Source: Clostridiales bacterium DTU086
Lineage (GTDB): Bacteria > Bacillota > DTU086
Length of the DNA: 38,563 nucleotides
Direction: 5' to 3'
Assembly: GCA_001513335.1 (NCBI GenBank)
Contig: LFTO01000109.1
Location: 1-38,563, forward strand
How positions within the stretch are numbered: the stretch's first letter is position 1; the number at the start of each line of letters is the position of its first letter. This document shows positions 30,107-38,563 of this stretch, in pieces. The position numbers and the translations under genes were made by a program. The notes under the pieces are model-generated. The model searched no databases, was not told the origin of the DNA, and saw only the letters and a list, made by a program, of their open reading frames with translations.

Positions 30107-30247
30107 GTTGCCTTCCGGTTTTGTGCCTTGGCCTAAAAAAAAGCTGTATTCCTCAAGCTAAGTTATTCGCAAAAGGTACGGAAGCACATTGCATAATCTG
30201 GGACAGCCTGAGATAGTTTGATATCTTTCTATGAAGGAGAGAGAAAG

Positions 30248-31072
30248 ATGCGGCCTTTGTGGAAGGGTGCAATTTCCTTTGGTCTGGTAAGCATTCCTGT
30301 AAAAATGTATGCTGCCACTGAACAGAAAAACGTTAAGTTCAACTATCTGCACCGGGAGTGCAAAACTCCGATAAAATACCAAAAAGTGTGCCCTGCCTGC
30401 GGGAGAGAGGTTTCAGCCGATGAAATTGTCAGGGGTTATGAATACCAAAAAGGCAGGTATGTGGTCATCGAGGACGAGGATATGGAGAACCTTCCGTTAA
30501 ACACCATGAGGACGATAGATATTTTGGATTTCGTGGAATTGGAAGACATTGATCCAATTTATTTTGTTAAATCCTATTTTCTTTCCCCCGAGGAATATGG
30601 AAAAAAACCTTATAAACTCCTGTTTGAGGCTCTAGGGAAAACAGGGAAAGTTGCTGTTGCCAAGGTTTTTATCAGGTCTCGGGAGAACCTGGTAACCTTG
30701 AGGAGGTACCGCAACTGTCTGCTGATGGAGACTATGCTTTACCCTGATGAAATCCGCCAGCCTGAGTCTATTCCCGAACTTCAGGAGGAAGTGGAAATAC
30801 ATGAAAATGAGTTAATAATGGCTGAAAGCCTGATTACCAATCTTTCCTCGGAGTTTAAGCCGGAAAAATACAAAAGTGATTACCGGGAAGCTCTATTAAA
30901 GGTAATTCACGCCAAGATAGAGAACGATGAAGTAGAGATTCCCAAAGCACCCCATGAGGAAAAGGTTATTGACCTGATGGAGGCTCTTAAAGCCAGTCTG
31001 GCGGCTACGGAAGGGAAAAAAGAGGAACCCAAAAAGAGAAAAAGGAAAACTGCCAAACAGAAGGAAGCATAA
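30248..31072 (+). CDS. ku: Bacterial Ku protein (NHEJ DNA end-binding)
   Basis: MRPLWKGAISFGLVSIPVKMYAATEQKNVKFNYLHRECKTPIKYQKVCPACGREVSADEIVRGYEYQKGRYVVIEDED. Confidence 0.97.
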   Translation: MRPLWKGAISFGLVSIPVKMYAATEQKNVKFNYLHRECKTPIKYQKVCPACGREVSADEIVRGYEYQKGRYVVIEDEDMENLPLNTMRTIDILDFVELEDIDPIYFVKSYFLSPEEYGKKPYKLLFEALGKTGKVAVAKVFIRSRENLVTLRRYRNCLLMETMLYPDEIRQPESIPELQEEVEIHENELIMAESLITNLSSEFKPEKYKSDYREALLKVIHAKIENDEVEIPKAPHEEKVIDLMEALKASLAATEGKKEEPKKRKRKTAKQKEA

Positions 31073-34286: not shown

Positions 34287-34663
34287 TGAGCATTAATGAA
34301 TATGTTGTAAAACTGGCTGAAGTTTTGGCACAATCGGAGGAGTATAAGGCTTTTGTTGCTGCTAAAGAGAATCTTAAGAAAAACAAGGCCAACGAGGAAA
34401 TGCTGGATTCCTTCCGCAAGAGACAGTTTGAACTCCAGATGGCAGAGCTGGCGGGCTATGAAGTAAATGAAGAGGAAAGGGATCAGCTGGAAAAAGAGTA
34501 CCAGCTGTTGTCTTTAAATCCCGAAATAAATGAATACCTAAATGCCGAATACAGATTTTCCCTGATAATGTCAGATATCCAGGGGGCTATTACGGGAGCC
34601 GTGCCGGAATGGTTTGATTTTACTCCGACAATTCCCGGTCAGGGAGCGCCATGCCTGCAGTAA
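34286..34663 (+). CDS. YlbF/YmcA family regulator
   Basis: LAEVLAQSEEYKAFVAAKENLKKNKANEEMLDSFRKRQFELQ; GTG at 34286 overlaps the lysE stop. Confidence 0.85.
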   Translation: MSINEYVVKLAEVLAQSEEYKAFVAAKENLKKNKANEEMLDSFRKRQFELQMAELAGYEVNEEERDQLEKEYQLLSLNPEINEYLNAEYRFSLIMSDIQGAITGAVPEWFDFTPTIPGQGAPCLQ

Positions 34664-35367
34664 AAGGCGGAAATGAGGAGGTCAAAGTGGCCAATACTAC
34701 CGTTTATCTGCGAAAAATTCCTTTATTTGCCCATTTAACCCAGGAAGAACTGGAGCTTATTGATAGGATTGTTAAAGTAAAAAAGTATTCCAAGGACAGC
34801 CTTATCTTTGTGGAAGGCGAGTATGGCAACGAACTGTACTTTGTAAAATCAGGTAAAGTTAAAGTGTCCAAGATGCTTGAGGATGGCAGTGAGAAAATTC
34901 TTCATTTCTTAAAAGAGGGGGATATTTTTGCCGAAGTATTAATTTTTAAGGGAGGGGAATACCCTGCTACTGCCCAGGTAATGGAGGAAAGTGAGATTGG
35001 CATCATTGCCAACGAAGATTTGGAAAGGCTGTTGAAAGAAAGAGGGGATATAACCTTTAAAATAATGGAGGTTATGGCTGAGCGCCTTCGGAATGCCCAG
35101 TACCATATTCGTGATTTGGCTCTGAGGGATGTGGACGGTCGCCTGGCAATTTCCCTGTTGAGCCTGGCTGAAGAACACGGGACCGAATCCGAACGGGGGA
35201 AGCCTGTTAATATAAGCATCAGTCAACAGCAGTTGGCCAATTTAGTAGGTGCTTCCCGGGAAACAGTTGCCCGAATATTAAGCTCCTGGAAGAAAAAGGG
35301 TTTTGTTCAGGTTCGAAAGAATGTTATCAGCATTAAAGATGTTGAAGGGTTAAAGTCCCTTTTTTAG
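34651..35367 (+). CDS. Crp/Fnr family transcriptional regulator
   Basis: cNMP-binding fold plus HTH VNISISQQQLANLVGASRETVARILSSWKKKGFV. Confidence 0.93.
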   Translation: MPAVKGGNEEVKVANTTVYLRKIPLFAHLTQEELELIDRIVKVKKYSKDSLIFVEGEYGNELYFVKSGKVKVSKMLEDGSEKILHFLKEGDIFAEVLIFKGGEYPATAQVMEESEIGIIANEDLERLLKERGDITFKIMEVMAERLRNAQYHIRDLALRDVDGRLAISLLSLAEEHGTESERGKPVNISISQQQLANLVGASRETVARILSSWKKKGFVQVRKNVISIKDVEGLKSLF

Positions 35368-35560: not shown

Positions 35561-36250
35561 ATGCTTCAGTGGCTTCGCAGGGTAAAGTCAAAAAGGAGTT
35601 TTAGGATTTTAGCAATGATTGGTGTTGCAATTTTGAGTGTTGGTTTGATAGGCTCTTTTGCTATTTGGTCCATACCTCAATTTTCCACATCCTCTCAAGC
35701 CAACAACCAGACACCGGTTGATCCTTCTGTCCAGTATGAGGAAATGGAGAATAGAATCTCCGAATTGGAGGCATCTCTTTCCGAGAATAAAGAGGACCCG
35801 AAGGTTTTGGAAAAGCTGGGGAACGCTTACTATGATTTGGGTTTTCAAATGTTTATGGATGGAGCAGATTCGGCTCTCGCTTTGGCAAAGCTGAATTCTG
35901 CCCTGGAAAATTATGAGGCCGCGTTGGAACTGGATCCGGAAAATGTCCCTCTCATGCTTCAGGCCGCCTCTACTGCGGCGAGTATAGGTAATACGGAAAA
36001 GGGAGAGGAGCTTTACAAGCAGGCGGTAGAACTTGAACCGGATTCTGCGGAAGCAAAGATGTATTACGGTAATTTCCTCCTTTACGCTAAAAGTGATTTC
36101 CAGGGAGCAAGGGAACAGCTTGAGAAAGCGCTGGAGCTTAACCCTGAGGAAGATATTAAATCGAGTATTGATGCCTTGTTAGAACAGGCTGACCAGCTGG
36201 AAGCGGCCCAAAAGGAAGCCGACAGCGAAAAGGATAAAGGAGAAGAGTGA
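35561..36250 (+). CDS. Membrane-anchored TPR protein
   Basis: N-terminal TM (RILAMIGVAILSVGLIGSFAIW) and TPR repeats (LEKLGNAYYDLGF; NYEAALELDPENV; LYKQAVELEPDSAEAKMYYGNFL; QLEKALELNPEE). Confidence 0.85.
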   Translation: MLQWLRRVKSKRSFRILAMIGVAILSVGLIGSFAIWSIPQFSTSSQANNQTPVDPSVQYEEMENRISELEASLSENKEDPKVLEKLGNAYYDLGFQMFMDGADSALALAKLNSALENYEAALELDPENVPLMLQAASTAASIGNTEKGEELYKQAVELEPDSAEAKMYYGNFLLYAKSDFQGAREQLEKALELNPEEDIKSSIDALLEQADQLEAAQKEADSEKDKGEE

Positions 36251-36265: not shown

Positions 36266-36287
36266 CCCGGGTTGCCCGGGTTTTTTT
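36266..36287 (+). terminator. Intrinsic terminator after TPR gene
   Basis: CCCGGG-TTG-CCCGGG followed by TTTTTTT. Confidence 0.8.
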
Positions 36288-36408
36288 ATGCCCTTGGCCT
36301 CTTCCCATCTTGCGTGCATTTTTTATGCCTTTGGGGGGCAGGGTAACATAGTGAGGGAGTGTACCCATCATATACGGGAAGCTTCGTCAGGCACAAATTA
36401 AACAGGAG

Positions 36409-37278
36409 ATGTGCATTATGAACGCTGAATATGATATGGTGATAATTGGGTGCGGTCCGGCCGGCCTTTCCGCGGCAATAAATGCCAAAGCACGAAACAA
36501 GCATGTTATTGTGCTCGGGGGTAATTTTTGCAGCCCCAAGCTGCACCGTTCACCGCGAATAGACAATTACCTGGGACTGCCCGGGATTTCCGGGGAAGAG
36601 TTAAGGCAACGGTTTTTAGAGCATGTAGAAAAGGCAGGTGTATCCATAAGAAAATGTAAAGTAATTTCTGTGTTTCCCCAGGATGGCAGTTTTCTAATAC
36701 AAACTGAGGAAGAAGAACCCTACTCCGCCAGGGCAGTTATCCTGGCTCTGGGAGTAACTGCCAGGACAGCTCTCCCCGGGGAGAAAGAATTTTTGGGGAG
36801 GGGGGTAAGCTACTGTGCCACATGTGATGCCCTCCTTTACAAGGGCAAAACCACTGCTGTGTTAGCTTACGAAAAAGAGGCTGAAGAGGAAGCCAAAGTC
36901 CTTGCCGGAGTATGCCAAAAGGTGTATTACCTTCCGCAATATAAAGACCGCCCGGGGAATAGCCTGGGAGATAATGTGGAAATAATTGAGGCTGAGCCAA
37001 CAGTTATTGAAGGGGAAAAATTAGTTGAATTTCTAAATCTGGGGCAGGAACGGCTCCAGGTTGATGGTATCTTTATAGTAAGAGAATCTGTCCCCGTTGA
37101 ACAGCTGGTCCCGGGCATAAAGATGTCAGGAAAATTTATTCAGGTAGATTCTGATATGGCTGCAAACGTTCCCGGCATTTTTGCTGCAGGGGACTGTGTC
37201 GGTGAACCTTTTCAGCTGGCTAAAGCTGTTGGGCAGGGGCAGATAGCAGCATTAAGTGCTGCTAAATATTTGTCGTAA
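36409..37278 (+). CDS. Thioredoxin reductase-like flavoprotein lacking NADPH motif (FFTR-like)
   Basis: FAD motif VIIGCGPAGLSAA, redox CATC (SYCATCDALL), C-terminal GIFAAGDCVGEPFQLAKAVGQGQIAALSAAKYL; usual GxGxxA segment reads AVLAYEKEAEEEA. Confidence 0.8.
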   Translation: MCIMNAEYDMVIIGCGPAGLSAAINAKARNKHVIVLGGNFCSPKLHRSPRIDNYLGLPGISGEELRQRFLEHVEKAGVSIRKCKVISVFPQDGSFLIQTEEEEPYSARAVILALGVTARTALPGEKEFLGRGVSYCATCDALLYKGKTTAVLAYEKEAEEEAKVLAGVCQKVYYLPQYKDRPGNSLGDNVEIIEAEPTVIEGEKLVEFLNLGQERLQVDGIFIVRESVPVEQLVPGIKMSGKFIQVDSDMAANVPGIFAAGDCVGEPFQLAKAVGQGQIAALSAAKYLS

Positions 37279-37300: not shown

Positions 37301-38452
37301 TTGGCAGAAATTTATCTGGATAACAGTGCTACTACTAAAATAATCCCCCAGGCGGCAGATGCCATGGCCGAAGCCGGCAGCCTGGTATACGGGAACCCTT
37401 CGTCCCTTCACGGGAAGGGCCTTGAAGCTGAAAAGCTGCTGAAGGGGACCAGGGAAATCCTGGCTGGAAACCTCTCATGCACTCCGGAGGAAATTTTTTT
37501 TACGTCCGGCGGTACGGAGTCCAATAACTGGGCGATATTGGGCAGTCTTCACAGGCGGCGCCGGCGCAGGGGGAAGCATGTAATTACAACAAAAATTGAG
37601 CACCCTTCTGTCCTTAAGGTTTGTCAATACCTGGAGGAGGAAGGGTATCAGGTTACCTACCTTGGTACTGACAGCACGGGAATTATTGACCTGGAAGAGC
37701 TGAAGGAGAACCTTCGTGAAGATACGGTGCTGGTCAGTGTTATGTATGTGAATAATGAGACAGGTGCCATCCAGCCAGTGGAGGAAATTGGGCGGTTTTT
37801 GAAGGAGGCAAGGAGGGATATAGTATTCCATGTTGACGCTGTCCAGGCTTTTGGTAAAATCCCCTTAAATCCGGCAAAAGCAGGGATAGATCTTCTCTCC
37901 TTAAGTGCTCATAAAATTCATGGTCCAAAGGGGGTAGGCGCCCTTTTTATCCGTAAAGGTGTTGCTGTTGATTCTCTCCTGAGGGGAGGAGAACAGGAAA
38001 ACGGGATGCGTCCAGGTACTGAAAACGTTCCGGGAATTGCTGCTTTTGGCGCAGCGGTAAAATTTATTCCCAAATGGCTTGAGGAAAGCAGCCGGGTTTA
38101 CTCTCTCAAGGAGCAGTTGATCAAACTCCTCCGGAAGAGAGTGCCTGAGATGGTTGTTAACGGCAGTCCGGACAGGGCAATTCCCTATATAGTAAACCTG
38201 TCTTTTCCGGGAATAAAGGGGGAGGTGCTGGTTCACTATTTGGAGCAGTATGGAATTTATGTTTCTACCGGGTCTGCCTGTCATTCCCGCAGCGGTGGCA
38301 GCAGTCACGTTCTCACAGCCCTTGGGTTGGATAAAGAAAGGCTGGAAGGGGCAATCCGGGTAAGTTTTTCTTATTTTAACAGGCCTGAGGAAATAGAACA
38401 GGCTGCTGGCAAGATAGCAGATGCCGTTATTGATTTGCAAAGTCTGAGATAG
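37301..38452 (+). CDS. Cysteine desulfurase, NifS/IscS class V (NifZ-like by thiI adjacency)
   Basis: IYLDNSATTKI; ITTKIEHPSVL; PLP-Lys SLSAHKIHGPKGVGAL; GGEQENGMRPGTENV; active-site STGSACHSRSG. TTG start 37301 with GGGAGGA; ATG 37283 is an alternative. Confidence 0.94.
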   Translation: MAEIYLDNSATTKIIPQAADAMAEAGSLVYGNPSSLHGKGLEAEKLLKGTREILAGNLSCTPEEIFFTSGGTESNNWAILGSLHRRRRRRGKHVITTKIEHPSVLKVCQYLEEEGYQVTYLGTDSTGIIDLEELKENLREDTVLVSVMYVNNETGAIQPVEEIGRFLKEARRDIVFHVDAVQAFGKIPLNPAKAGIDLLSLSAHKIHGPKGVGALFIRKGVAVDSLLRGGEQENGMRPGTENVPGIAAFGAAVKFIPKWLEESSRVYSLKEQLIKLLRKRVPEMVVNGSPDRAIPYIVNLSFPGIKGEVLVHYLEQYGIYVSTGSACHSRSGGSSHVLTALGLDKERLEGAIRVSFSYFNRPEEIEQAAGKIADAVIDLQSLR

Positions 38453-38456
38453 GGTG

Positions 38457-38563
38457 ATGTTTGTGAATGATCAGAGAAAAACTATTCTTGTCAGATATGG
38501 CGAGATTGGTCTAAAGGGGAAAAACCGTTCATCTTTTGAATCTGCACTAATACGTAATATGCG
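38457..38563 (+). CDS. thiI: tRNA 4-thiouridine synthetase ThiI, 3'-truncated by window edge
   Basis: MFVNDQRKTILVRYGEIGLKGKNRSSFESALIRNM matches the ThiI N-terminus; ATG overlaps no listed ORF because it runs off the end. Confidence 0.9.
   Translation, partial: MFVNDQRKTILVRYGEIGLKGKNRSSFESALIRNM

Follow-up and report, generated by a model that had tools for sequence, protein, structure and literature searches.

A predicted ferredoxin-dependent flavin thioredoxin reductase of the clostridial type, encoded at the head of a cysteine desulfurase-thiI operon in a Clostridiales bacterium

The reductase gene and its neighbours

The window analysed here, a stretch of 38,563 nucleotides from Clostridiales bacterium DTU086, carries near its 3' end a gene (36409-37278) which we assign, from its open reading frame, its matches in the PDB and its place in phylogenetic trees, to the clostridial type of ferredoxin-dependent flavin thioredoxin reductases (FFTRs) without a C-terminal tail. 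This gene and all of the neighbours described below lie on the forward strand. The reading frame opens with an ATG and encodes 289 aa; translation probably starts at the ATG at 36418, giving a protein of 286 aa (MNAEYDMVIIG...), because the Shine-Dalgarno-like AGGAG at 36404-36408 precedes this codon by 9 nt, whereas the ATG at 36409 follows it with no gap.

Upstream of the FFTR gene are a conserved neighbour encoding a Crp/Fnr-type regulator (34651-35367) and a gene for a TPR protein (35561-36250), which adjoins upstream in all three family members seen. A hairpin resembling an intrinsic terminator, CCCGGGTTGCCCGGG followed by TTTTTTT, lies between the TPR and FFTR genes (36266-36287). The stop codon of the FFTR gene is followed after 22 nt by a gene with a probable TTG start for a cysteine desulfurase of the IscS/NifS type (37301-38452), which scores above the cut-off of NF002806 and matches TIGR03402 (3e-130) and Aminotran_5. 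Only 4 nt further on lies the 5' end of thiI, the gene for tRNA 4-thiouridine synthase (38457-38563), which runs off the contig; the fragment matches the ThiI of a second genome of the family (G001) at 73% in tblastn. The remainder of a ThiI gene is found at the end of contig C189 (G000:C189:4629-5756), and the gene has probably been split by an assembly break between two neighbouring contigs. Elsewhere in the window, an ORF at 30218-31072, identified by eye, resembles bacterial Ku of non-homologous end joining and comes right after a long flagellar and chemotaxis cluster.

The motif strings quoted in an earlier note on this DNA (GCGPAGLSAA, GIFAAGDC, CATC, TAVLAYEKEAEEEAKVL and YYLPQYKDRPG) are all found in the FFTR reading frame. 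Both FAD motifs, the dinucleotide-binding GCGPAGLSAA (36448-36477), which contains Cys15, and GIFAAGDC (37174-37197), are intact, as is the redox-active CATC (Cys136 and Cys139; 36814-36825). When the protein is aligned to its relatives and to reference enzymes, the segment xVAVIGGGxxAxEEA of the NADPH dinucleotide motif is replaced by the degenerate TTAVLAYEKEAEEEA (36850-36894), with AVLAYEKEAEEEA at the position of VIGGGxxAxEEA, and the segment QKVYYLPQYKDRP (36916-36954), with YYLPQYKDRPG at the position of HRRxxxR, is devoid of this 2'-phosphate motif; neither GGGxxAxEEA nor HRRxxxR is matched. The canonical NTR encoded in the same genome displays VIGGGDTAVEEA and HRRDRLR in the corresponding columns, and thus the loss is no artefact of the alignment. 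The earlier statement that the protein "has lost" its NADPH motif is accurate as to the absence, with GxGxxA and HRRxxxR both missing, but not as to any oddity, since this is the normal state of the published family. The surroundings of CATC, GRGVSYCATCDA, are as in FFTRs that reduce thioredoxin, and the C-terminus (...SAAKYLS) does not extend into the flavin-stacking Trp tail of the cyanobacterial enzymes.

Placement among the thioredoxin reductases

The best PDB matches of the window protein are the solved FFTRs 6gna, 6gnb, 6gnc and 6gnd, with E values of 8e-82 to 3e-83, while the best NTR reaches 2.5e-40; the top match (E = 3.3e-83) covers residues 7-287 of 289, a similarity in sequence that is far beyond chance. 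A profile of the family compared with the structures gives 2.9e-114 for FFTR and 2.7e-71 for NTR, and the protein scores 198.1 bits with the NCBIfam NTR model TIGR01292, below the curated cut-off of 343.45. An alignment-based scan of genome contigs yielded 80 loci, while a scan with the single protein yielded none. In searches for relatives, the scores are split into FFTR-like matches of at least 220 bits and all others of at most 159 bits. Two genes bear mention for their own sake: a second FFTR copy (G008:C12:19086-19922) has one in-frame TAG and may be a pseudogene or subject to stop read-through, and at L007:542-1264 (genome G054) a peroxiredoxin-like gene lies immediately 5' of the FFTR gene.

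Three maximum-likelihood trees, a quick one of 81 rows and careful ones of 57 and 48 rows, are mutually consistent. The quick tree supports the NTR branch and the clostridial FFTR branch at 99 each. In the 57-row tree the window protein shares a branch (100/100) with 6GNA, 6GNC and other Bacillota FFTRs, and the TRi enzyme 5NII forms a separate branch (100/94) with sulfate-reducer and archaeal proteins, although 5NII is a long branch and its placement is unsure. Row L145 of this tree was the NTR that neighbours the FFTR at its locus, and was corrected in the 48-row tree; at that locus (L145:305-2340, genome G125) an NTR-like gene adjoins the FFTR gene. In the 48-row tree the NTR branch has support of 100/99 and the window protein falls outside it, beside 6GNA and 6GNC; forcing it among the NTRs, the grouping that would have contradicted the earlier note, is rejected by the AU test (p-AU 0.0185). 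The full pair of NADPH motifs occurs in no row of the FFTR clade in this set, and in the NTR rows except L028, which has an altered HPRE. On the tree and the AU test we reject both an origin among the NTRs and a mere drift of the NADPH motifs.

A template-free AlphaFold2 model of the monomer from 44 sequences is confident (pLDDT 92.6, pTM 0.83), retains a Rossmann-like second domain, and is arranged like the open FFTRs. In Foldseek it superimposes on 6gna with a TM of 0.81 (rmsd 3.3 Å), on 6gnc with 0.85 (2.9 Å), and on the open Gloeobacter FFTR with 0.74; NTRs reach a TM of about 0.5-0.57 at 11-16 Å, the difference being a rotation of the domains. A second template-free model, from 10 sequences, has a pLDDT of 80.5 and an orientation nearest to the closed NTR structures. 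As the shallower alignment gives a closed model and the deeper one an open model, the predicted orientation depends on the alignment, and we take the open model as evidence, but not proof, that the protein adopts the open FFTR arrangement. In the published open state the CxxC is distant from the flavin (PMC8469568, PMC12796991), and a closed form is also to be expected transiently during the catalytic cycle.

The genome, 98.8% complete and 4.1% contaminated, encodes one FFTR and, on another contig, one canonical NTR. The presence of an NTR together with a non-NTR enzyme is usual in most Clostridia and Negativicutes (PMC10880999). Potential redox partners comprise a single canonical WCGPCK thioredoxin (TrxA, contig C227) plus one weak thioredoxin-fold match, a Fer4_15 ferredoxin with weaker ferredoxin-like matches, and four POR-gamma-type matches above cut-off; no FTR beta subunit was found in this 98.8% complete assembly.

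The sulfur-transfer operon and an extra cysteine pair

The order Crp-TPR-FFTR-desulfurase-ThiI is also found in G001 and G003, and thus in three of the three family genomes where it can be checked; a further genome, G002, stands outside this count, as its contig C126 starts inside the desulfurase gene and the position of the FFTR is unassembled. The ThiI of G001 has ThiI_fer, THUMP and ThiI domains, and the domain search found no rhodanese domain in it. Among 150 Bacillota genomes (thresholds of E <= 1e-55 for FFTR and E <= 1e-40 for ThiI), none of the 13 others with both genes has them adjacent; they lie far apart or on other contigs. The array looks lineage-specific, and its absence from all 13 of these genomes implies that a link to sulfur transfer is not general to FFTRs. 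In Thermosulfurimonas dismutans (L122:4690-6790), the gene for a TRi-branch reductase and one that encodes a ThiI domain (PF02568, 1e-34; TIGR00342 below cut-off) overlap, sharing 11 nt. This is a suggestive but single parallel, as the other TRi-branch loci that were read hold no further association with ThiI.

The window protein has an extra pair of cysteines in its FAD domain, which it shares with a subgroup of the clostridial FFTRs. Cys15 (36451-36453) lies within the FAD dinucleotide motif, in GCGPAG, and Cys41 (36529-36531, in FCSPKL) just past the second strand of the FAD domain. In a sample of 38 clostridial FFTRs that was not selected by pattern, and which includes two C. acetobutylicum FFTRs and leaves out the biased rows fetched with GCGPAG, both cysteines occur together in 25 proteins and neither in 12, with Cys15 alone in one; the solved C. 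acetobutylicum enzymes have neither. On the tree this pattern comes down to just two to four independent changes, fewer than a test of linkage would need.

When ThiI transfers sulfur, a disulfide or persulfide remains and has to be reduced, and a thioredoxin reductase in this operon would therefore make sense. In the lineage of the window protein, part of the thiol-reducing power may, as a weaker proposition than the identity of the enzyme, be spent on resetting the disulfide or persulfide with which each transfer of sulfur leaves ThiI or the desulfurase. A fuller version, in which a chain from ferredoxin through the FFTR to thioredoxin drives the reduction step of the pair formed by desulfurase and rhodanese-less ThiI, and Cys15/Cys41 are the hallmark of a subgroup that has a second dithiol of regulatory or structural role, is speculative and we consider it rather unlikely. 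Should the link prove functional, the operon would offer a direct test of how electrons are supplied to tRNA thiolation in anaerobes.

Proposed function and comparison with known systems

Taken together, sequence, tree and predicted domain arrangement place the window protein in the clostridial FFTR family, as the earlier note had proposed, and it is very probably such an enzyme, its dependence on ferredoxin being judged from this kinship. In the proposed mechanism, 2-oxoacid:ferredoxin oxidoreductases would produce reduced low-potential ferredoxin, which would pass two electrons, singly, to the solvent-facing FAD of an open homodimer. The degenerate NADPH domain, which carries the disulfide and would have given up NADPH binding, would then swing Cys136-Cys139 to the flavin and back, and so deliver the electrons to thioredoxin. 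The electron donor, the partner thioredoxin, the domain swing and the dimer are transferred by analogy from the published FFTRs (PMC12796991, PMC8469568), and the distribution of the family and its motif criterion, the lack of GxGxxA and HRRxxxR, from PMC10880999.

We consider it very improbable that the protein is instead a divergent thioredoxin reductase that still depends on NADPH or NADH, with mere drift in its pyridine-nucleotide site: the common ancestry and fold and the Rossmann-like domain that is still predicted would fit such an enzyme, but both binding motifs are gone, just as in the solved FFTRs, grouping with the NTRs is rejected by the tree, and the genome encodes a separate, intact NTR. 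The open structures 5nii and 5j60/6xtf, which are likewise relatives without NADPH motifs, raise the thought of an enzyme like the Desulfovibrio TRi or the cyanobacterial FFTRs, which would reduce disulfides independently of pyridine nucleotides and have a different donor or a flavin gated by the tail. This seems highly unlikely given an identity of 49% to 6gna against about 31% to 5nii and 5j60, the position of 5nii (itself a long branch, and so unsure in its placement) in a different supported branch, and a C-terminus that ends short of the cyanobacterial Trp tail (described in PMC8469568).

The tight FFTR-desulfurase-ThiI operon in three family members, together with the gene overlap in T. 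dismutans, could also be read as the mark of a thioredoxin-independent reductase that serves the desulfurase-ThiI pathway by reducing ThiI or the desulfurase directly. The CATC surroundings match those of thioredoxin-reducing FFTRs, however, the genome encodes a WCGPC thioredoxin, and at other loci trxA is often found beside or close to an FFTR-like gene (L018, L062, L076, L111, L118, L120 and L121); we regard direct reduction as highly unlikely. An FFTR acting through thioredoxin is an enzyme kind already known, of which the window protein is a mostly ordinary clostridial member; it extends the family to a further Bacillota lineage and agrees with the idea that thioredoxin in many anaerobes is fed in parallel from NADPH and from ferredoxin. 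What is new is modest: an FFTR gene that heads a tRNA sulfur-transfer operon in this bacterial family, and a subgroup with an extra cysteine pair.

The closest known systems are the C. acetobutylicum FFTRs (6GNA/6GNB, 6GNC and 6GND), which are 48-49% identical over the full length, of equal length, and share CATC, the loss of the NADPH motifs, the absence of a C-terminal tail and the open arrangement of our model; 6GNA and 6GNC have Ser and Leu in place of Cys15 and Cys41, and the window gene differs in heading a desulfurase-thiI operon. Clostridioides difficile TrxB1 and TrxB4 are likewise FFTRs without GxGxxA or HRRxxxR that occur beside an NTR in one anaerobe, but their genes share operons with trxA1 or trxA2 (PMC10880999), while in the window genome trxA lies elsewhere. 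The Gloeobacter violaceus FFTR (5J60, 6XTF) is ferredoxin-driven, makes no use of NADPH and is open like our model, but is about 31% identical and ends in a C-terminal tail with a Trp that stacks against the flavin of the partner subunit, a feature absent from the window protein. Desulfovibrio vulgaris TRi (5NII), an atypical low-molecular-weight reductase, is also without NADPH motifs, but is about 31-32% identical and belongs to another branch of the tree. Finally, the genome's own canonical NTR (TrxB, contig C100) shares the FAD motifs, the CxxC and the two-domain fold with the window protein, but retains GGGDTAVEEA and HRRDRLR and lies across a fully supported branch from it.
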